Below are positions 6,005 to 15,283 of a DNA stretch of 64,000 bases, piece after piece. The translations under genes were made by a program, and so were the position numbers. This DNA is from Flavobacteriaceae bacterium LYZ1037 (GTDB taxonomy: Bacteria; Bacteroidota; Bacteroidia; Flavobacteriales; Flavobacteriaceae): NCBI GenBank assembly GCA_003144015.1, contig QFWS01000006.1, forward strand, positions 62,001 to 126,000, written 5' to 3'. The number at the start of each line of letters is the position of its first letter. Position 1 is the first letter of the stretch. The notes below the pieces were generated by a model. The model was not told the DNA's origin. It saw only the letters and a program-made list of their open reading frames with translations, and searched no databases.

Positions 6005-6961
6005 TTAAAATACCTGTGATGCAATGGCTTTTATATTATCACTTTTTCCCATAGAGTAAAAATGAAGCACAGAAATTCCAGCTTTTTGAAGCTCTTTAGA
6101 TTGTTGAATACACCACTCAATACCTAATTGTCTCACTTGCTCATTGTCTTTACATTTTACAATTTCCAATATTAATGCTTCAGGTAAATCCACATGAAAA
6201 CGATGCGGAATTAAATTCAGTTGTTTTTTGGTTGCTATAGGCTTTAATCCTGGTATAATAGGAACTGTAATACCTTCTTTTCTACATTTTTCTACAAATT
6301 CGAAATACTTCGCATTATCAAAAAACATCTGTGTAACTATATATTCTGCACCATTATTTATTTTCTTTTTTAAGAAATGTATATCACTATCCAAGCTTGG
6401 TGCTTCCATATGTTTTTCAGGATATGCAGCAACGCCAACACAGAAATTTGTTGCTGAAGAATTGAGTAGCTCTTCATCTAAATACACGCCTTTATTTAAC
6501 TCTGAAATCTGGGAGACTAACTCACTTGCATAATTATGGCCTTCTTTTTCGGCTTTAAAATAGGTTTCTGTTTTTACGGCATCGCCACGTAAAGCCATGA
6601 CATTATTGATTCCTAAGAAATCTAAATCAATTAAAAAATTCTCGGTGTCTTCTTTAGTAAATCCACCACATAAAATGTGTGGAATGGCATCTACATGGTA
6701 TTTATTTTGAATGGCTGCACAAATACCAACCGTTCCTGGTCGCTTTTTTACCACTTTTTTCTGCAACAACCCATTATCAAGCTCTTTGTAAACATATTCT
6801 TCACGATGATAGGTAACATCTATAAACGGAGGTTTAAATTCCATTAAGGGATCGATATTATCGAATATAGATTGTATATGCTGCCCTTTTAATGGTGGTA
6901 AAATCTCGAATGAAAACTGGGTGTTTCCATTGGCTCTTTTTATATGTTCTATAACTTTCAT
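6005..6961 (-). CDS. metF: Methylenetetrahydrofolate reductase
   Basis: Reduces 5,10-methylene-THF to 5-methyl-THF, the methyl donor for MetH, using FAD and NAD(P)H. The 318-residue TIM-barrel protein has FSFEILPP at the N-terminus (catalytic Glu), the ALRGD segment near residue 120 and the FAD/folate loop TQMFFDN. It lies two bases downstream of the MetH C-terminal gene and closes the SAM-riboswitch methionine operon. Confidence 0.94.
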   Translation of the reverse strand: MKVIEHIKRANGNTQFSFEILPPLKGQHIQSIFDNIDPLMEFKPPFIDVTYHREEYVYKELDNGLLQKKVVKKRPGTVGICAAIQNKYHVDAIPHILCGGFTKEDTENFLIDLDFLGINNVMALRGDAVKTETYFKAEKEGHNYASELVSQISELNKGVYLDEELLNSSATNFCVGVAAYPEKHMEAPSLDSDIHFLKKKINNGAEYIVTQMFFDNAKYFEFVEKCRKEGITVPIIPGLKPIATKKQLNLIPHRFHVDLPEALILEIVKCKDNEQVRQLGIEWCIQQSKELQKAGISVLHFYSMGKSDNIKAIASQVF

Positions 6962-6963
6962 AT

Positions 6964-9702
6964 TTAATCTGCTAAATTAGGACGTAACCACTTTTCAGCT
7001 TCGTCTTCAGTAATACCTCTACGTTTTGCGTAATCTTTTATTTGATCTTCTTTTATTTTTCCAAGCCCAAAATATTTAGCTTCCGTATTGGCAAAATAAT
7101 AACCACTCACACTTGCTGCCGGCCACATGGCTAGGCTTTCTGTAAGTTCAACTCCAATATTTTCCTCTACATCTAAAAGTTTCCAAATAGTTTTCTTTTC
7201 TAAATGATCTGGACAAGCAGGATACCCAGGAGCCGGACGAATACCTTTATAGTTTTCTTTAATTAAATCGTCGTTGGTTAAGCTTTCGTCTTGTGTATAA
7301 TTCCAATAATTGGTTCTTACTTCTTTATGTAAATATTCTGCAAAGGCTTCAGCCAATCTATCGGCCAATGCTTTAACCATAATGGCATTATAATCGTCAT
7401 GATTTTTTTCAAACGCTTTTGCTAAAGCTTCTGTTCCAAAACCAGTTGAGACACAGAAACACCCCATATAATCTTGAATTCCTGTTTCTTTTGGCGCAAT
7501 AAAATCGGCCAAGGCCAAGTTTGGTTTTCCGGATGCTTTTTTTGATTGCTGACGAAGGGTTAGGAATGTTAGGTTGTTATTAGGATCTCTAAGAGATGCT
7601 TCGACAGGCTCAGCATGACAGTTTTCAATTGTCAATTCAATATCGTCATCATTGACTGTATTTACCGGAAACAACCCGAAAACAGCTTTGGCTTCCAAGA
7701 GTTCTTCATCAATAATACGCTTAAGCAAAAGGTTAGCATCTTTAAATAATTCTCTGGCTTGTTCGCCAACAACAGCATCTTCTAGAATATTTGGATAACG
7801 ACCATGTAAATCCCAGCTTCTAAAAAATGGACTCCAATCAATATAGTCTTCTAATTTTCTTAAATCGAAATCTTCAAGAACCTGAATACCTAATTGCTTT
7901 GGCTTTACTATTTCTGTAATGTTCCAGTCAATGCGAAAATTGTTTTTTCGTGCCTCCTCAATCGTCAAGTATTCTTTTTCTCTGGTTCGTTTTAAAAATT
8001 GATTTCTAAACTTTTCGTACTCTTCTCTAATTTCTTCTTTAAAAACACCATTATCTTTCTTTAATAAATTCCCAACGACTGTTACAGCACGTGACGCATC
8101 ATTAATATGCACTACAGTATGCTTATAATTTGGTGCAATCTTAACAGAAGTATGTGCTCTAGAGGTTGTGGCGCCACCAATAATTAAAGGAATATCTAAA
8201 TTTTTCTTTTCCATTTCTTTAGAAACAAAAGACATTTCATCTAAAGAAGGAGTAATTAAGCCACTTAAACCAATGATGTCCACATTCTCTCTAATGGCCG
8301 TTTCTATAATTTTTTCTGGCGCCACCATGACACCTAAATCTACAATCTCGTAATTATTACAACCCAAGACTACACTCACGATATTTTTTCCAATATCATG
8401 TACATCGCCTTTAACCGTTGCCATTAAAATTTTACCTGCAAATTCTTGTTTCCCATCTTTTTCTGCTTCAATAAATGGTTGTAAATAAGCAACGGCCTTT
8501 TTCATAACTCTTGCAGATTTCACCACCTGTGGCAGGAACATTTTTCCACTTCCAAACAAATCGCCAACAACATTCATCCCTATCATTAAATGGCCTTCTA
8601 TGACCTCAATTGGCTTCGATGAAGCTAGTCTGGCTTCTTCAATATCTTCAATAATAAAAGTGTCAATTCCTTTTACTAGAGCATGTGTGATTCTCTCTTG
8701 CAACGGATGCTCTCGCCATTCTAAAACCGTAGCCTCTATATCTTTTTTATTTCCTTTTACTGTTTCGGCAAAATCTAATAAGCGTTCGGTGGCGTCTTCT
8801 CTTCTATCGAAAAACACATCTTCTACCAACTCTAACAATTGGTTATCAATCTCATCATAAACCTCTATCAAAGCAGGATTGACGATCCCTAAATTCATTC
8901 CATGTTGAATGGCATGATATAAAAATGAGGCATGCATAGCTTCACGAACTGTATCATTTCCTCTAAAAGAAAAAGACACATTACTTACGCCTCCTGACAC
9001 ATTCGCATAAGGAAGGTTTTCGCGAATCCATTTGGTAGCCATGAAAAAATCCAAAGCGTTTTTTCTGTGTTCTTCCATGCCTGTGGCAACAGGGAAAATA
9101 TTAGGGTCGAAAATAATGTCTTGTGGAGGAAAGTTAACTTGGTTAACCAAAATATCATACGAACGTTTACAAATTTCTATTCTGCGTTCGTAAGTATCAG
9201 CTTGTCCATCTTCATCAAAAGCCATGACAATGACAGCTGCTCCATAACGCTTTACCAATTTTGCATGATGAATAAATTCAGCCTCACCCTCTTTTAAACT
9301 AATTGAATTCACAACCGATTTCCCCTGAACCACTTTCAATCCAGCTTCAATAATCTCCCATTTGGAGCTATCAATCATAATCGGAATTCGAGCAATATCA
9401 GGTTCAGAAGCAATAAGATTTAAGAATTTGGTCATCGCAAACACACCATCCAGCATGCCTTCATCCATATTCACATCTAGAATTTGAGCACCACCTTCCA
9501 CTTGATGCCTGGCAACCTCCAAAGCTTCGTTATAATTCCCTTCTTTAATTAATCGAAGAAATTTTCTAGAACCTGTTACATTGGTTCGCTCACCAACATT
9601 AATAAAGTTGCTTTCAGGAGTTACAACTAGTGGCTCTAATCCTGATAATGTTAAATACTTTTGGTGTTTGGTATTTAATGTTTGGTATTTGGTATCATTC
9701 AT
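6964..9702 (-). CDS. metH: Methionine synthase, C-terminal half (folate, B12 and activation domains)
   Basis: Cobalamin-dependent transfer of methyl from methyl-THF to homocysteine, as the second subunit of a split MetH. The order is a pterin-binding barrel (GERTNVTGS near 37), a cobalamin cap and B12 domain with the His ligand in GDVHDIGKN (near 432), and a SAM-dependent reactivation domain with [12 protein letters not shown] (near 820). The homocysteine barrel is the separate gene at 10085. Two oddities: the first about 15 residues are encoded by tandem heptamers, and about residues 694-704 (CHAEPVEAS) are encoded by a dispersed palindrome inserted in frame before [16 protein letters not shown]. 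The reading frame is intact. Confidence 0.94.
7584..7620 (-). repeat. TGTCA-headed palindromic repeat inside metH (copy b)
   Basis: On the minus strand TGTCA is followed by a hairpin with ATGCT/AGCAT arms and the TCGA core, then by a second small palindrome (ATCTCT/AGAGAT). It is translated as the [12 protein letters not shown] segment of the MetH reactivation domain without breaking the frame. Confidence 0.75.
9659..9697 (+). repeat. Tandem TTTGGTA-type heptamers at the 5' end of metH C-terminal gene
   Basis: About five degenerate heptamers of the form TTTRRTR lie in a row on the plus strand, overlapping the start of the metH C-terminal gene. Related heptamers in the opposite orientation lie at 10079-10097, on the far side of the IVP gene. 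Confidence 0.6.
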
Positions 9703-9704
9703 TA

Positions 9705-10064
9705 CTATAATTTGTTTTTGAAATAGTTAATGAATCCGTTTAGTAATTTCTTGCAGGATGTTAATTGCTCTAGAATTACATTTAATTGTTCTTCAGAAAT
9801 GTATTCTAAATCGAATGCAAGATATATCTGTGTCTCTAATTCAAACAAAGAGCCTTTTGCTATATACAAAAACTGAATAGTTTCTTTGTCTGATTGCCTT
9901 CCTATACCTTCAGCTATATTTGAAGGTACCGAAACCACACTTCTATTAATCTGATTTGTTAAACTATATAATTCTGTATTTGGAAAGTGCTTAGTTAGTT
10001 CATAAACCGATTTCACCAATGCTCTTGCAAATTTCCAAACGTCTAATTCCGTATAATTTTTCAT
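9705..10064 (-). CDS. Four-helix-bundle protein (23S rRNA intervening-sequence protein family)
   Basis: A 119-residue all-alpha protein with family hallmarks: [22 protein letters not shown] near the start, then [18 protein letters not shown] and [21 protein letters not shown]. Relatives are encoded within 23S rRNA intervening sequences and are also scattered through Bacteroidota genomes; their molecular role is not settled. Here it interrupts the met operon between the two metH halves, two bases before the second half. It has no evident link to methionine synthesis and is flanked by inverted heptamer repeats, which suggests insertion as a small cassette. Confidence 0.85.
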
Positions 10065-10078
10065 TATTTATATTTTTC

Positions 10079-10097
10079 TAAACACTAAACACTAACA
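10079..10097 (-). repeat. GTTTAGT heptamer repeats flanking the IVP gene
   Basis: Two to three copies of GTTTAGT on the minus strand, overlapping the stop of the metH N-terminal gene. They are inverted relative to the TTTGGTA-type heptamers at 9659-9697, so the IVP gene is framed by related repeats pointing inward from both sides. Confidence 0.55.
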
Positions 10098-11083
10098 ACC
10101 ATTCTTGGTTTATAATTTTTAGCCACATCTGCAATGGCTTTAATGTGCTCCGGATTTGTACCACAACAGCCACCAATAATATTAATAAGCCCATCTTTTA
10201 AATAATTTTCAATCAACACTTGCATTTCTTTGGGTGACTGGTCGTATTCCCCAAAAGCATTTGGCAAACCTGCATTTGGATGTGCCGATGTGTAAAACTG
10301 TGTTGCATTTGACAGTCTTTGTAAATATGGTTGCAGCTGTTCGGCTCCAAGAGCACAATTAAACCCAACACTTAGTAAGGGGATATGAGAAATTGAAGTT
10401 AAAAATGCCTCAACGGTTTGCCCAGACAGCGTTCTTCCTGATGCATCTGTAATGGTTCCAGAAACCATAATTGGAATATCGATGTTGCGTGCTTCTTTAA
10501 CCTCATCAATGGCAAACAAGCAAGCCTTAGCATTAAGTGTATCGAAAATAGTTTCAACCAAAAGCACATCAACACCTCCATCAATCAAAGCTTCCACCTG
10601 TTGTTTGTAAGCAATTCTAAGGTCATCAAAAGTGACTGCTCGAAATTCGGGTCTGTTGACATCTGGAGACAAACTCGCCGTTCTATTTGTTGGCCCAATA
10701 CTTCCAGCTACAAATCGGGGTTTTTCAGGATTTGCCTTGGTGAAATCATCTGCTACTTTTCTTGCTATTTTAGCCGATTCAAAATTAAGCTCGTACACCA
10801 AATCTTCCATGTTATAATCTCCCATAGCAATGGTAGTTCCTGAAAAGGTATTGGTCTCTACAATATCTGCCCCTGCTTCAAAATACTTTCTATGCACCTC
10901 GGCAATAGCTTCTGGTTGCGTCAAGGAAAGCAAGTCGTTATTACCTTTTAGCGAGGTTGGGTAATCCTTAAAGCGTTCACCTCTAAAATCTTCTTCAGAA
11001 AATTTATAGCGTTGCAACATGGTTCCCATGGCTCCATCGAGAACCAAAATGCGTTTTTGTATGTCTTGCTTAATATCTCTCAT
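10085..11083 (-). CDS. metH: Methionine synthase, N-terminal half (homocysteine methyltransferase)
   Basis: Zinc-dependent homocysteine-binding barrel of MetH, here a separate 332-residue protein. LDGAMGTMLQ opens the barrel; zinc ligands are the Cys in GFNCALG (near 240) and the CC pair in IGGCCGTNPEHI (near 305). It must work with the B12/folate subunit encoded at 6964. Its last codons lie in a GTTTAGT repeat, so the C-terminal VVSV may have been altered by that repeat. It starts six bases after the homoserine dehydrogenase gene. Confidence 0.93.
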   Translation of the reverse strand: MRDIKQDIQKRILVLDGAMGTMLQRYKFSEEDFRGERFKDYPTSLKGNNDLLSLTQPEAIAEVHRKYFEAGADIVETNTFSGTTIAMGDYNMEDLVYELNFESAKIARKVADDFTKANPEKPRFVAGSIGPTNRTASLSPDVNRPEFRAVTFDDLRIAYKQQVEALIDGGVDVLLVETIFDTLNAKACLFAIDEVKEARNIDIPIMVSGTITDASGRTLSGQTVEAFLTSISHIPLLSVGFNCALGAEQLQPYLQRLSNATQFYTSAHPNAGLPNAFGEYDQSPKEMQVLIENYLKDGLINIIGGCCGTNPEHIKAIADVAKNYKPRMVVSV

Positions 11084-11088
11084 AATTT

Positions 11089-12171
11089 TTAATTTAAACT
11101 GTTTGAAAGCTTCACGATGTCTGAAAACAATCCTCTGGCTGTCACACCCTTCCCTGCTCCTGCACCTTGAATCACCAAAGGGAAGTCTTGGTAAGACTCT
11201 GAATAAATTTCAAACACAGAATCTGCACCTTTTAATTGTCCGATAGCTGAGCTTTTTTCTTCTGAAACCAATTTCACTTCCAAGGTGTTTTTAATAACAT
11301 CCAATTCGCCAACATAACGCAACACCTGATTTTCTAAAAGCTGTTCTTTTAACAAGTGAAACGGAACATCTAATTCCTTGCTTCTACTAATAAACTGATG
11401 AACCGTTGTTTTACCATTAAGTGTTTTAGGCACTAAAGATTCTACTAAAACATCATGGAATTCCGTTTTTAAATGAAGCTCTCTAGCTAAAATCAATAAT
11501 TTCCTAGCCACATCATTTCCTGATAAATCTTCTCGTGCATCAGGCTCTGTTAAACCTAACTGATTTGCTTGTTTTAAAATTTCTGAAAAAGAAATATTTT
11601 CAGATGAAAACGCATTAAAAATATAACTTAAGGAGCCTGAAAAAACGCCACGTATTTTTTGAATTTGCTCACCAGAATCATACAGTCTTTTAACCGTTTC
11701 AATAATTGGCAAACCTGCACCAACATTGGTTTCGTATAAAAAGGACTTATGATGTTTTTTTAATGTGAGTCTCAATTGTTCGTAAAAATCAAAACTTAAA
11801 GTATTCGCTACTTTATTTGCCGACACAATATGAAATCCGTTTTCAATTAAAGGCACATAATTCTGCACAAAATCTTTACTTGCTGTCGCATCAATAGCTA
11901 CTAAATTCTGAAAATGATGTGTCTTCACATAACTAATAATATCTTCAATTTTATAAGGAATCGAAGCCTTTTCAAAATCAGAATGCCAAGAATTTTCAAT
12001 GCCAAATTCATTGAAAAATGCCACTTTAGAATTTGTAACAACAGGAATATGAATGTCTAAATTCTGCTGGGCTTGTAATTGCGACTTGGCAGCTTGAATT
12101 TGATTAATTAAGGTACTGCCAACATTCCCTATTCCGAAAATAACCACATGTAGGCTTTTACTGTTTGACAT
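11089..12171 (-). CDS. hom: Homoserine dehydrogenase
   Basis: Reduces aspartate semialdehyde to homoserine, the branch point to methionine and threonine. The 360-residue protein has a Rossmann motif FGIGNVGST near the N-terminus and SANKVANTLSF near 130; no aspartokinase or ACT domain is present. I chose the ATG at 12171, which puts the Rossmann strand at the start; the in-frame start at 12204 would overlap metB by 47 bases. With the chosen start the overlap is 14 bases. Placement in a SAM-controlled operon makes this homoserine supply methionine-responsive. Confidence 0.9.
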   Translation of the reverse strand: MSNSKSLHVVIFGIGNVGSTLINQIQAAKSQLQAQQNLDIHIPVVTNSKVAFFNEFGIENSWHSDFEKASIPYKIEDIISYVKTHHFQNLVAIDATASKDFVQNYVPLIENGFHIVSANKVANTLSFDFYEQLRLTLKKHHKSFLYETNVGAGLPIIETVKRLYDSGEQIQKIRGVFSGSLSYIFNAFSSENISFSEILKQANQLGLTEPDAREDLSGNDVARKLLILARELHLKTEFHDVLVESLVPKTLNGKTTVHQFISRSKELDVPFHLLKEQLLENQVLRYVGELDVIKNTLEVKLVSEEKSSAIGQLKGADSVFEIYSESYQDFPLVIQGAGAGKGVTARGLFSDIVKLSNSLN

Positions 12172-13333
12172 AACCTGTTTCTTTATTTTTGTTAATAGAT
12201 GCAAAAGCTTGACTTAAATCGTTTATCAAATCTTCAGCCTCTTCAATCCCACAAGACAAACGTATCAAGGAATCTTTAATTCCTGACTGCAATCTTTTTT
12301 CACGAGGAATAGAAGCATGTGTCATTTGTGGTGGATGGCAAAGCAAACTTTTTACGCCACCAAGGCTTTCTGCCAGTTTGAAATAATGGGTGTTTGTTAC
12401 AAAGTGGTTGGCTGCTTCTTGCGTGTCTTCTTTTAGAGTGAAAGAAACAATTCCTCCAAACAAACCGTTTTGCTGACGCTTCGCTATCTCATGATTCTTA
12501 TGAGATACCAATCCTGGGAAATACACTTTTTCAACAGCATCATGGTTCACTAAAAAGGCAGCAACTGCAAAAGCATTTTCGCATTGTTTTTTAAAACGCA
12601 ACTCTAAGGTTTCAATACCTCGAATGGTTAAAAAGCAATCCCAAGGCCCCAAAATGCCACCTGAAGCATTTTGAACAAATTTTAATTTTTCAGATAATTC
12701 TTGTGTTTTAGTCACTACCAAACCAGCCACTAAATCTGAATGACCTCCAATGTACTTGGTGCCACTATGGATAATAATATCTGCTCCAAGAGTTATAGGT
12801 TGTTGAGCAATAGGGCTCGCAAAAGTATTATCGACCACTAAAAGGGCATTCACACTCTTGGCAATCTTAGATATTTCCTGAATATCAGATACTTTTAAGG
12901 TTGGATTTGTTGGAGATTCAATCCAAACCAACTTTGTTTTGCTGCTAATAACATTTGCTACATTTTCAGCATCTGTAGTATCTACATAATGTACTTTAAT
13001 CCCTAGTTTTTCGTACACATGGGTAAATAAACGATAAGCACCCCCATAGATGTCATCTACAGCTACAATCTCATCGCCAGCAGATAATAATTTTAACACA
13101 GCATCAATAGCTGCCAAGCCAGTAGCAAAAGCAAAACCAGAATGTCCTCCCTCTAATTGAGCTACCACGTTTTCTAAAACTTGACGTGTTGGGTTGTTGC
13201 TTCGTGCATAATCAAAGCCTTTGTTTACTCCAGGAGCATCCTGAATAAAAGTGGATGTTTGGTACACTGGTACCGAAATAGCGCCTGTTAATGGATCGCT
13301 TGGAATGGAATGAATAATTTTTGTTGCACTCAT
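12158..13333 (-). CDS. metB: Cystathionine gamma-synthase / trans-sulfuration PLP enzyme
   Basis: Cys/Met-metabolism PLP enzyme of 391 residues. YARSNNPTR (near 43) binds the neighbouring subunit's phosphate, and the PLP lysine lies in SGTKYIGGHSD near residue 190. It would join an activated homoserine with cysteine (gamma-synthase) or with sulfide (sulfhydrylase); sequence alone does not settle the donor or whether it also acts as a lyase. It is the first gene of the SAM-I riboswitch operon, which favours a biosynthetic role. Confidence 0.85.
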   Translation of the reverse strand: MSATKIIHSIPSDPLTGAISVPVYQTSTFIQDAPGVNKGFDYARSNNPTRQVLENVVAQLEGGHSGFAFATGLAAIDAVLKLLSAGDEIVAVDDIYGGAYRLFTHVYEKLGIKVHYVDTTDAENVANVISSKTKLVWIESPTNPTLKVSDIQEISKIAKSVNALLVVDNTFASPIAQQPITLGADIIIHSGTKYIGGHSDLVAGLVVTKTQELSEKLKFVQNASGGILGPWDCFLTIRGIETLELRFKKQCENAFAVAAFLVNHDAVEKVYFPGLVSHKNHEIAKRQQNGLFGGIVSFTLKEDTQEAANHFVTNTHYFKLAESLGGVKSLLCHPPQMTHASIPREKRLQSGIKDSLIRLSCGIEEAEDLINDLSQAFASINKNKETGYVKQ

Positions 13334-13613
13334 TTTTCTAATTTTTTTTGAGTTAATAATGAGTGCTATTTGCAGAACAAGATAAATGGAGTAAAAAGCA
13401 TTTTTTTCGCTTATACTTCAAAATAAAAATTAACAATAGCGATGCTATTCTGAATTTTTCTTTCTTGTCTAATCAAAAAATCTATCTGTTTCCTCGTCAT
13501 CAATCTCGCTCAACAAATAGCACGATTAAACCAAAAGTCAAATGCGTCTTTGCAGACGTACCTAATAGAAAAATGTTAAAAAGAAAATTGAAATAACAGA
13601 TGAGTCATTTCGT
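13334..13613 (-). other. Long untranslated leader between SAM-I aptamer and metB
   Basis: A 280-base transcribed spacer. It holds small hairpins (CGTCT/AGACG near 13549-13562 and AATAGC/GCTATT near 13434-13450) but no strong G+C stem followed by a T-run directly after the aptamer. A plus-strand ORF here (13363-13596) is not credible. The expression platform is not clear from inspection. Confidence 0.45.
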
Positions 13614-13740
13614 TTTAGTTATCTATCCAATAAATCGATAAATGAATCGATCATTAAGTAGAATGTAGCACCTTCTTAATTGCTTAAGGGTTGCTAAGGC
13701 TTCACAGGGTCTAATCCCTCCACCTTTCTTGATAACATTT
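13614..13740 (-). ncRNA. SAM-I (S-box) riboswitch of the methionine operon
   Basis: The minus strand carries the S-box core in order: TTATCAAGAAAGGTGGAGGG, GACCCTGTGAAGCC, TTAGCAACC, AAGGTGCTACATTCTAC and the closing GATAGATAAC, which pairs with GTTATC at the 5' end (P1). These are the conserved SAM-binding blocks. About 280 bases separate it from metB. Binding of SAM should reduce expression of the metB-hom-metH-metF operon. Confidence 0.93.
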
Positions 13741-13766
13741 CAGTAAGTTTTTGAACTTTGTGAGCA

Positions 13767-13799
13767 CAAATATAGCATCAGAAAAATTTAATATCCAAA
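13767..13799 (-). promoter_or_regulatory. Promoter of the methionine operon
   Basis: Minus strand: TTTG (13799-13796), 21 bases, then TATATTTG (13774-13767), a perfect TAnnTTTG. Transcription would start near 13760, just before the SAM-I aptamer. Confidence 0.75.
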
Positions 13800-13825
13800 T
13801 ATTTTGGGAAAAAAAGTTAATTTAA

Positions 13826-13855
13826 TTTGCCATCCATTTAATTTTTCTACATTTG
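13826..13855 (+). promoter_or_regulatory. metK promoter
   Basis: TTTG (13826-13829), 18 bases, then TACATTTG (13848-13855), a perfect -7 element. The predicted start near 13862 lies just before the SAM-II-like aptamer. Confidence 0.78.
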
Positions 13856-13868
13856 CAATTCAAATATC

Positions 13869-13921
13869 AAGAGGAAAAATTTGTCTGATTGCAACCTCTA
13901 TAAAAAAATGCTAAAGCAGTA
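13869..13921 (+). ncRNA. SAM-II-like riboswitch upstream of metK
   Basis: AGAGG (13870-13874) pairs with CCTCT (13895-13899) to form P1. Between them lies ATTTGTCTGATTGCAA, matching the SAM-II loop pattern AUUUG..CNGAUUGCAA. Downstream come TAAAAAAATGCTAAAG and a CAG (13917-13919) that can pair with CTG in the loop (13885-13887), giving the H-type pseudoknot. Position before metK, directly after a promoter, supports the call. The class is recognised from the consensus by eye; no covariance search was run. Confidence 0.82.
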
Positions 13922-13931
13922 AAAATCTACT

Positions 13932-13961
13932 CCTCTAGCAATAGCAATCCGATATTTTTTT
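13932..13961 (+). promoter_or_regulatory. Possible expression platform of the metK riboswitch
   Basis: A second CCTCT (13932-13936) could replace the P1 3' strand, and GCAATC (13944-13949) can pair with GATTGC in the aptamer loop (13887-13892). GCAATC is followed by a run of seven T (13955-13961). The parts of an alternative fold are present; how they switch is not clear. Confidence 0.45.
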
Positions 13962-13993
13962 CATACATTAATTAAATATTAAAACAGGAATAT

Positions 13994-15283
13994 ATGTCTT
14001 ATTTATTTACTTCTGAAAGTGTTTCAGAAGGACATCCAGACAAAGTAGCAGATCAGATTAGTGATGCTTTGATTGACAACTTTTTAGCATTCGATAAAGA
14101 CTCTAAAGTAGCTTGTGAAACCCTTGTTACAACAGGACAAGTCGTGCTAGCAGGTGAAGTAAAATCGAACACCTATTTGGATGTTCAGAAAATTGCCAGA
14201 GATACCATCAACAAAATTGGCTATACAAAAAGTGCTTATATGTTTGACGGTAATTCGTGTGGCGTTTTTTCTGCAATTCACGAACAATCTGATGATATCA
14301 ATCGTGGTGTAGATAGAGCAAGCAAAGAAGAACAAGGTGCAGGAGATCAGGGAATGATGTTTGGTTATGCCACAAATGAAACTGAAAACTACATGCCTTT
14401 AGCTTTAGATTTAGCACATAGAATTCTTATTGAATTGGCTGCTTTACGAAGAGAAAATAAAGACATTACCTACTTAAGACCAGATTCTAAAAGTCAGGTA
14501 ACGATTGAATATAGCGACGATAATGTCCCACAACGTATTGATGCCATTGTGGTGTCTACGCAGCACGACGATTTTGTCAAGCCAAAATCAAACTCTAAGA
14601 AAGCTGTGACTGCTGCCGATGAAGCCATGTTAGCAAAAATTAGAAAAGATATTGTGGATATTTTAATTCCACGTGTTATTGCTTCTTTACCACAAAATAT
14701 TCAAGCCTTATTTACAGACAACATAAAATACCATATCAATCCAACAGGAAAATTTGTAATAGGTGGCCCACATGGAGATACCGGATTAACAGGACGAAAA
14801 ATTATTGTCGATACCTATGGTGGAAAAGGGGCTCATGGTGGAGGAGCTTTTTCAGGAAAAGACCCTAGTAAAGTAGATAGAAGTGCAGCCTATGCTACCA
14901 GACATATTGCAAAAAACTTGGTTGCTGCAGGTGTTTGTACAGAAGTATTAGTTCAAGTTAGCTACGCCATTGGTGTTGCTGAGCCAACTTCAATTTATAT
15001 TAACACTTTTGGAACCTGTGAGTTTAATTTAACCGATAGTGAGATTGCAGAAAAAGTAACTGAACTTTTCGATATGCGTCCAGCTGCAATAGAAAAACGT
15101 TTAAACTTACGCCAACCAATGTACAGCGAAACAGCTGCTTATGGCCATATGGGAAGAAAAAACGAAGTCATTACTAAAACTTTTGAGCAAATTAACGGTA
15201 GAAAGAAAAAAGTAGAAGTAGAATTGTTTACATGGGAAAAATTAAATTATGTAGAAAAAGTAAAAGCGGCTTTTGGGTTGTAA
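13994..15283 (+). CDS. metK: S-adenosylmethionine synthetase
   Basis: Makes SAM from methionine and ATP. Signature segments: [13 protein letters not shown] near residue 15 (methionine/ATP), [12 protein letters not shown] near 115 and [19 protein letters not shown] near 280. The 429 residues are slightly longer than the E. coli enzyme (384) because of insertions such as the Lys/Ser-rich stretch near 195-205, as in other Bacteroidota. It is divergent from the methionine operon and preceded by its own SAM-II-like riboswitch, so product and substrate pathways both answer to SAM. Confidence 0.97.

Follow-up and report, generated by a model that had tools for sequence, protein, structure and literature searches.

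Two SAM riboswitch classes back to back upstream of metB-hom-metH-metF and metK in a flavobacterium: family-wide co-occurrence, gene partition and predicted start masking

How do two unrelated RNA folds divide the sensing of one ligand when they lie side by side in one genome? The locus described here, a divergent intergenic region of the marine Flavobacteriaceae bacterium LYZ1037 with aptamers of two SAM riboswitch classes, raises this question and bears on why several unrelated RNA folds for one ligand persist in bacteria. We analyzed the window, a stretch of 64,000 nucleotides (contig QFWS01000006.1, positions 62,001 to 126,000), together with the distribution of both classes in the family and the phylum. 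An earlier note on this DNA had read the minus strand as carrying a SAM-I (S-box) aptamer for a metB-hom-metH-metF operon and the plus strand, about 130 bases away, as carrying a SAM-II-like aptamer for metK, each behind its own TAnnTTTG box.

The two aptamers and their genes in the window

Searches with the Rfam models confirmed that two SAM riboswitch classes lie back to back in the window, each model having a single match in the draft genome:

13616-13738, minus strand: SAM-I (S-box) aptamer, RF00162 (cmscan 69.7 bits, gathering score 44.4, model positions 1-108 of 108)
13865-13924, plus strand: SAM-II long-loop aptamer, RF01726 (cmscan 73 bits, gathering score 44, model positions 1-60 of 60)

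The gap between the two aptamers measures 126 nt, close to the distance first estimated. A few non-standard pairs are flagged in the alignment of the SAM-I aptamer and none in that of the SAM-II aptamer, whose sequence also holds complementary CUG and CAG segments as a candidate for an H-type pseudoknot that would join the P1 loop to the 3' segment, the Rfam model itself having no pseudoknot. The earlier note had staked its reading of the metK leader on the SAM-II model, and the leader passes it over its full length; the assignment to the SAM-II class stands and the name SAM-alpha does not, the family being the long-loop RF01726 and not RF00521. The interval given for the pair, 13614-13921, is the right region, with the SAM-II end placed too early, since the model reaches 13924, and the parts that we predict to do the switching lie mostly outside that interval (13566-13585 and 13331-13340 on the minus strand, 13928-13962 on the plus strand).

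TAnnTTTG is the -7 promoter consensus, and such a box is present 28 nt upstream of the SAM-I aptamer and 9 nt upstream of the SAM-II aptamer, giving the following predicted promoter elements:

13767-13774, minus strand: -7 type box TATATTTG, predicted promoter of the met operon
13795-13799, minus strand: candidate -33 box TTTGG, met operon
13848-13855, plus strand: -7 type box TACATTTG, predicted promoter of metK
13826-13829, plus strand: candidate -33 box TTTG, metK

Since the aptamers lie on opposite strands and their promoter boxes diverge, they do not form a tandem within one transcript. The genes downstream, compared with NCBIfam models, agree with those named in the earlier note:

13994-15283, plus strand: metK, S-adenosylmethionine synthetase (TIGR01034, 502.5 bits, cut-off 309.4)
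12158-13333, minus strand: metB-like gene, cystathionine gamma-synthase/lyase family (NCBIfam; no cut-off passed among the best 25 of 68 matches)
11089-12204, minus strand: hom, homoserine dehydrogenase, as the listed ORF (C-terminal half of ThrA, below cut-offs); its true start is probably nearer 12168
10085-11083, minus strand: N-terminal part of metH, homocysteine methyltransferase domain (model positions 11-338 of 1234)
6964-9702, minus strand: C-terminal part of metH (TIGR02082, 1236.1 bits, cut-off 1010.85; model positions 339-1230 of 1234)
6005-6961, minus strand: metF (TIGR00676, 308.9 bits, cut-off 293.7)

Between the split halves of metH lies an ORF (9705-10064, minus strand) for a four-helix-bundle protein (TIGR02436, 132.3 bits). 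With the corrections given above and below, the sequence comparisons support the first interpretation of the locus.

Distribution of the two classes and partition of their genes

The earlier note expected only some Bacteroidota examples of SAM-II; the class proved instead to be near-universal in Flavobacteriaceae. Model searches of 299 genomes of the family found RF01726 in 283 and RF00162 in 234; both classes are present in 228, SAM-II alone in 55, SAM-I alone in 6 (G048, G066, G118, G138, G151 and G170, six of the 16 genomes without SAM-II) and neither in 10, counts in which some absences may be false because the stricter filters used for the family searches drop some weak matches. Carrying both SAM-I and SAM-II is the norm in this family; in the parts of a 2007 survey cited here, no species is reported with both. 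A sample of 247 genomes from the phylum contains SAM-II in 38 (35 above the cut-off) and SAM-I in 208, and 35 of the 38 SAM-II-bearing genomes also have SAM-I. Of the SAM-II matches, 27 fall in the window's family (every member listed), 3 in another family of the same order, and 5 and 2 in two further families of the class, with one weak match below the cut-off elsewhere. The counts of 208 and 38 in 247 genomes indicate that SAM-I is phylum-wide and SAM-II narrower.

The two classes also differ in the genes that they precede. We sampled 110 SAM-II loci, namely, that of the window, 29 from the family search and 80 that were fetched, all drawn from roughly the better-scoring half of the matches; one of them, L023, duplicates L063 and is included in the present count but excluded from the anti-aptamer test of the SAM-II leaders onward. 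The placement of SAM-II upstream of metK, read by the earlier note from a single leader, holds across the sampled loci of Flavobacteriaceae: the aptamer lies within 300 nt of the metK start in 108 of the 110 loci, and in the two exceptions, both without metK, it precedes a metY-like gene (L028) and a short operon ending in metH (L006). The 85 SAM-I cores in the sampled loci were reduced to 80 distinct ones by removal of repeats of the same place, and for none of these 80 does a same-strand metK follow within 700 nt (in 73, the available sequence extends 700 nt or more past the core). The sampled loci show a strict division of genes: SAM-II goes with metK, and SAM-I does not.

Seven of the 299 family genomes have two SAM-II matches, and all seven are without a SAM-I match. 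In G298, G290, G081 and G052, one SAM-II precedes metK and the other stands at the head of an operon that includes metH or a metY-like gene; in G004 neither copy is before metK, one heading a metY-like gene and the other a metH operon (six loci fetched as extra SAM-II copies stand outside the 110). The presence of a second SAM-II on metH/metY-like operons in SAM-I-less genomes suggests that SAM-II is able to take the place of SAM-I. A small gene after the further SAM-II in SAM-I-less genomes (L006 1501-2624; L223, L224 and L226) is one that we take, by eye, to be queF-like, and a tie of queuosine synthesis to SAM control through the further SAM-II is possible. In L006, a membrane protein gene also follows the further SAM-II, before metH.

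These genomes bear as well on whether both RNAs sense SAM, or whether one of them has drifted to another ligand in the manner of the spermidine-sensing variants of SAM-I. Such a variant class exists according to the passages of PMC10853860 cited here, but the SAM-I aptamer of the window lies before methionine synthesis genes and not before polyamine genes, both RNAs match their models end to end, and in all five genomes examined of the seven with two SAM-II matches and no SAM-I, SAM-II also heads metH/metY-like operons, as if the classes were interchangeable. We find it scarcely credible that only one of the two RNAs senses SAM.

A scenario in which metK was originally under SAM-I and later came under SAM-II was also considered and is unsupported. 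We located metK in 30 genomes belonging to other families, of which 5 had matched SAM-II in the phylum search and 25 had not, and SAM-I lay beside metK on its strand in 0 of the 30. SAM-II above the cut-off was found beside metK in three of the five genomes with SAM-II (L157, L161 and L165); a match of 43.3 bits in G394, just under the cut-off, is also upstream of metK, and one of 31.9 bits in G446 is on a contig other than that of metK. One of the 30, from another family within the class, has a SAM-I aptamer (L174, 1218-1316, minus strand) head to head with metK, and no SAM-II above the cut-off is present. The SAM-Chlorobi RNA (RF01724) is found beside metK in 2 of the 30 genomes (L180, 2757-2844, minus strand; L182, 1305-1391, plus strand).

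The back-to-back pair, real in the window, is a minority arrangement. We surveyed 81 metK loci, those of the window and of the 80 fetched stretches. A SAM-I core lies inside the stretch in 43 of them and in none of the other 38; the 43 comprise 17 loci in which the two aptamers diverge within 400 nt, 11 in which they diverge over more than 400 nt and 15 in which SAM-I follows metK on the same strand. The 17 head-to-head loci include the window, its genus mates L062 and L063, and L064 to L068, which were fetched for showing the divergent pair; among loci not picked by arrangement, the tight form accounts for 9 of 60. TAnnTTTG is present upstream of SAM-II in all 17 head-to-head loci, and the exact motif occurs at the SAM-I side position in just 3 of the 16 relatives of the window, many of which carry AATATTTG.

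The spacing of the head-to-head pairs is nearly constant. From core to core it amounts to 159-162 nt in 12 of the 17 loci, and a pattern search of the GTDB 220 collection yielded 35 contigs with the head-to-head form, all with a SAM-I core and 32 with metK downstream (the remaining three end too soon), in 33 of which the spacing falls within 4 nt of one another even though the pattern allowed 28 nt of play. The SAM-I text pattern is approximate: it put 27 of 30 SAM-I loci at the expected place and missed L033, L045 and L058, the first of which, a cut-short stretch, was later placed at its true SAM-I position. Fifteen genus names occur among the 35 contigs, 11 of them from isolates (Aequorivita, Altibacter, Aquaticitalea, Bizionia, Cochleicola, Formosa, Halomarinibacterium, Hanstruepera, Marixanthomonas, Subsaxibacter and Xanthomarina). 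Many of the 35 loci are near relatives (Aequorivita), and common descent may explain the constant spacing. On whether the back-to-back placing has any function of its own we are evenly divided. The met genes and metK may simply cluster, with the spacing inherited, an explanation compatible with the dual switches proposed below: other layouts are common in the 81 loci (the wide divergent, the in-line and those without a SAM-I core), and common descent together with two minimal promoters could yield a constant spacing. Only the constancy itself, in the 12 of 17 and the 33 of 35 loci, opposes it.

Predicted start masking in the two leaders

We consider it probable, on the basis of modeled folds, that the two leaders are independent SAM feedback switches with unrelated folds, both OFF and acting mainly on translation. 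SAM-I would sense SAM for metB-hom-metH-metF, and the long-loop SAM-II would sense it for metK. In the absence of SAM, the strand downstream of each aptamer would pair back onto the 5' part of that aptamer, leaving the start site open; upon SAM binding, the aptamer would close, the downstream strand would be freed and the start site would be masked, a design that would need no Shine-Dalgarno sequence. With two such OFF switches, rising SAM would shut off the synthesis of its precursor and its own. To represent the SAM-bound state, we "locked" the aptamer region by setting it unpaired, with no ligand energy, which is a crude stand-in, and the cost of opening the start was measured over -15 to +6 around the start codon. 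The shuffle and permutation tests reported below leave common descent in.

The elements of the SAM-I leader are as follows:

13725-13742, minus strand: 5' strand of the SAM-I P1 with flanks, partner of the downstream anti-aptamer strand in the duplex test
13566-13585, minus strand: anti-P1/anti-start strand, predicted to pair with the P1 5' strand in the free fold or with the metB start region in the locked fold
13331-13340, minus strand: UAGAAAAAUG, metB start codon region, exact complement of 13566-13575 (CAUUUUUCUA)
13590-13611, minus strand: 8-bp hairpin between P1 and the anti-P1 strand, in the free and locked folds

Among 69 SAM-I leaders (L064, with no P1 match, was left out), the anti-P1 duplex has a mean z of -2.68, and 48 leaders have at most 5 of 100 shuffles as good, the window having 3 of 100. 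With the aptamer locked, the start-opening cost of 57 leaders goes up by a mean of 2.27 kcal/mol (-0.01 for shuffles; P = 2e-8), and for 40 of the 57 no more than 1 of 20 shuffles reaches the same rise; three leaders shift by more than 0.5 kcal/mol in the wrong direction, two of which have mis-called starts, and the mis-called starts L036 and L049 were retained in these counts. The loss of openness upon locking is greatest at -5 to +4. Taken by itself, the duplex between the downstream strand and the start is modest against shuffles (mean z, -0.88; no more than 5 of 100 shuffles as good in 9 of 56 leaders, and 15 of 100 in the window), and such duplexes fit their own partner better than the starts of other leaders (0 of 5000 permutations). 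Leaders of this class in which no start could be called were left out of the strand-to-start, opening-cost and openness-profile tests. In the window, locking adds 2.8 kcal/mol to the opening cost, with 0 of 20 shuffles as high, and the locked fold contains a 10-bp helix in which the freed CAUUUUUCUA would pair with UAGAAAAAUG, start codon included, across a 161-nt stretch. In these models, the SAM-I leader of the window is a clear case of a start-masking translational OFF switch.

Three further features of the SAM-I leaders were observed. The 161-nt stretch between the switch and metB (13363-13523, minus strand) has 10-nt perfect terminal inverted repeats (GTGCTATTTG and CAAATAGCAC), and the leader is 284 nt long in the window versus 115-142 nt in other leaders with the same metB start (MSAT...); a mobile repeat was considered and rejected, the stretch being single-copy in the draft genome. 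Between the SAM-I promoter box and the aptamer (13739-13766, minus strand), UGCUCACAAAGUUCAAAAACUUACUGAA is strongly conserved by eye in many head-to-head relatives and may extend the anti-P1 pairing. The metH-type SAM-I leaders (e.g., L034, L038, L041 and L059) have a different anti-P1 strand, UUCUUGAUGACAU, the UGACAU of which complements the start AUGUCA in L038, L041 and L059, a second form of the same design.

The SAM-II leader is built from four segments:

13874-13892, plus strand: segment A, 5' part of the SAM-II aptamer, pairing with A' in the free fold
13909-13921, plus strand: segment B, 3' part of the SAM-II aptamer, pairing with B' in the free fold
13928-13940, plus strand: segment B', complementary to B (window, 5 of 100 shuffles as good)
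13944-13962, plus strand: segment A', anti-aptamer strand, complementary to A (window, 0 of 100 shuffles as good)

Closure of the aptamer on SAM would free A' and B' (13928-13962). The A:A' pairing has a mean z of -2.37 in 106 SAM-II leaders (L138 left out), 71 of which have at most 5 of 100 shuffles as good, and cognate pairs average -16.27 kcal/mol versus -14.52 kcal/mol for permuted ones (a difference of 1.75, with 0 of 2000 permutations as low). B and B' pair weakly across these leaders (mean z, -1.14; no more than 5 of 100 shuffles as good in 26 of the 106). Over 105 metK leaders, locking makes the start costlier to open by a mean of 2.02 kcal/mol (-0.14 for shuffles; Wilcoxon P = 6e-15); for 55 of them no more than 1 of 20 shuffles reaches the same rise, and 7 shift the wrong way by more than 0.5 kcal/mol. 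L138 and L140, the latter of identical sequence, were left out of this test and of the openness profile. That profile is noisy, the change at +50 to +54 (-0.13) being no smaller than the one before the start codon (-0.06 to -0.10). The effect is small in the window (+1.3 kcal/mol, 2 of 20 shuffles as high) and absent in both sampled genus mates (L062, -0.1; L063, -0.2). With a mean shift across the 105 leaders but next to none in the genus mates, it is the sampled set that supports a translational OFF switch, and a blocking partner near the metK start is only weakly predicted in the window's genus.

Both RNAs could instead be genuine SAM riboswitches that act through intrinsic termination of transcription, SAM closing the aptamer and letting a terminator form. 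The SAM-I aptamer is indeed followed by the 8-bp hairpin and a U-rich stretch, and the A' strand of the SAM-II leader ends in a U run. However, the SAM-I hairpin is present in the free and locked folds alike and is thus not conditional in these folds, whereas the U run of the SAM-II leader complements the A run of the aptamer itself and follows a hairpin just in the SAM-free fold. Moreover, downstream of the aptamer, six consecutive U are absent from 83 of the 106 metK leaders, and a simple terminator scan, in which at least three G-C pairs were required, gave just an unrelated hairpin (13558-13545, minus strand). We have therefore demoted intrinsic termination as the mechanism and hold it to be unlikely.

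The SAM-free fold of the window's metK leader also allows the opposite polarity. This fold is a long hairpin in which A:A' encloses B:B' (-22.7 kcal/mol; z, -4.25), and with its stem ending in a U run it could end transcription until relieved by SAM, making SAM-II an ON switch. SAM synthetase is normally essential, and an ON switch would mean positive feedback on the very enzyme that makes SAM. The run of six U is found in just 23 of the 106 leaders, and locking lowers the mean start openness across the 105 leaders, which is the OFF direction. An ON switch at metK is, in our judgment, very improbable.

We return to start masking as the mechanism favored for both leaders. Sequestration of a Shine-Dalgarno sequence at metK was considered, the window's leader having AGGA before the AUG and UCCU in B'. 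This candidate was rejected, as AGGA, GGAG or GAGG occurs within 18 nt of the start in just 5 of 107 metK leaders, the window's included, and ribosomes of the phylum ignore such sequences according to the passages of PMC9976891 cited here. In those passages and the corresponding ones of PMC6847099, Bacteroidia ribosomes are described as failing to recognize Shine-Dalgarno sequences, and mRNA structure as tuning initiation in F. johnsoniae; the direct masking of the start that we infer for both leaders would fit such a phylum. The leaders thus suggest, at the level of modeled folds, a riboswitch control of translation that works without Shine-Dalgarno recognition, the start codon itself being masked.

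As a more tentative extension, which we regard as rather doubtful, the two folds might share this Shine-Dalgarno-free control, split the pathway, with SAM-I on methionine synthesis and SAM-II on SAM synthesis, and be tuned to different SAM levels, so that its branches close in a set order, with SAM-II taking over the genes of a lost SAM-I. The locus lends itself to such questions, since the affinity, speed and output of both sensors can be compared within a single cell, or even on a single DNA fragment, about 670 nt being enough to include both start codons.

Relation to known SAM riboswitch systems

Two SAM aptamer classes at one locus are known from the tandem SAM-II/SAM-V and SAM-II/SAM-I-IV systems (PMC9481103, in the passages cited here). 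Those tandems lie on one transcript, whereas the window has two predicted divergent transcripts serving two branches of the pathway, and the partner of SAM-II is SAM-I itself. The cited passages of that 2022 review contain no divergent pair, and the word "divergent" is absent from its main text. Among titles and opening abstracts in the open-licence part of PubMed Central, with subscription papers and supplements outside this scope, we found none on a division of labor between SAM-I and SAM-II in Flavobacteriaceae.

A separate RNA class dedicated to metK also has parallels in the SAM-Chlorobi and SAM/SAH RNAs, the latter being reported upstream of metK in Rhodobacterales in the passages of PMC2864571 cited here. 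Their folds are unrelated to that of SAM-II, and the SAM-Chlorobi matches lie in other families of the phylum-level sample.

Taken singly, each aptamer resembles its known family. The SAM-I aptamer matches RF00162 in full, above the curated score, and precedes methionine synthesis genes as expected. Its expression platform differs in that it is predicted to mask the start codon through an anti-P1 strand rather than to use the classical terminator or Shine-Dalgarno block, and SAM-I precedes metK in none of the 80 distinct cores examined here, whereas SAM-I of Firmicutes also controls metK (PMC4239095, in the part cited here). The SAM-II aptamer is likewise a full match to RF01726, a variant whose long loops are listed for "Bacteroidetes, marine," that is, for Bacteroidetes and marine DNA, in the cited passages of the 2010 report (PMC2864571). 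Compared with those passages, it is here near-universal in one family, mostly dedicated to metK and followed by a putative downstream anti-aptamer strand. The parts are thus known, and what is new, as far as could be seen, is the family-wide co-occurrence of the two classes, the partition of their genes and the start-masking design that both leaders are predicted to share.
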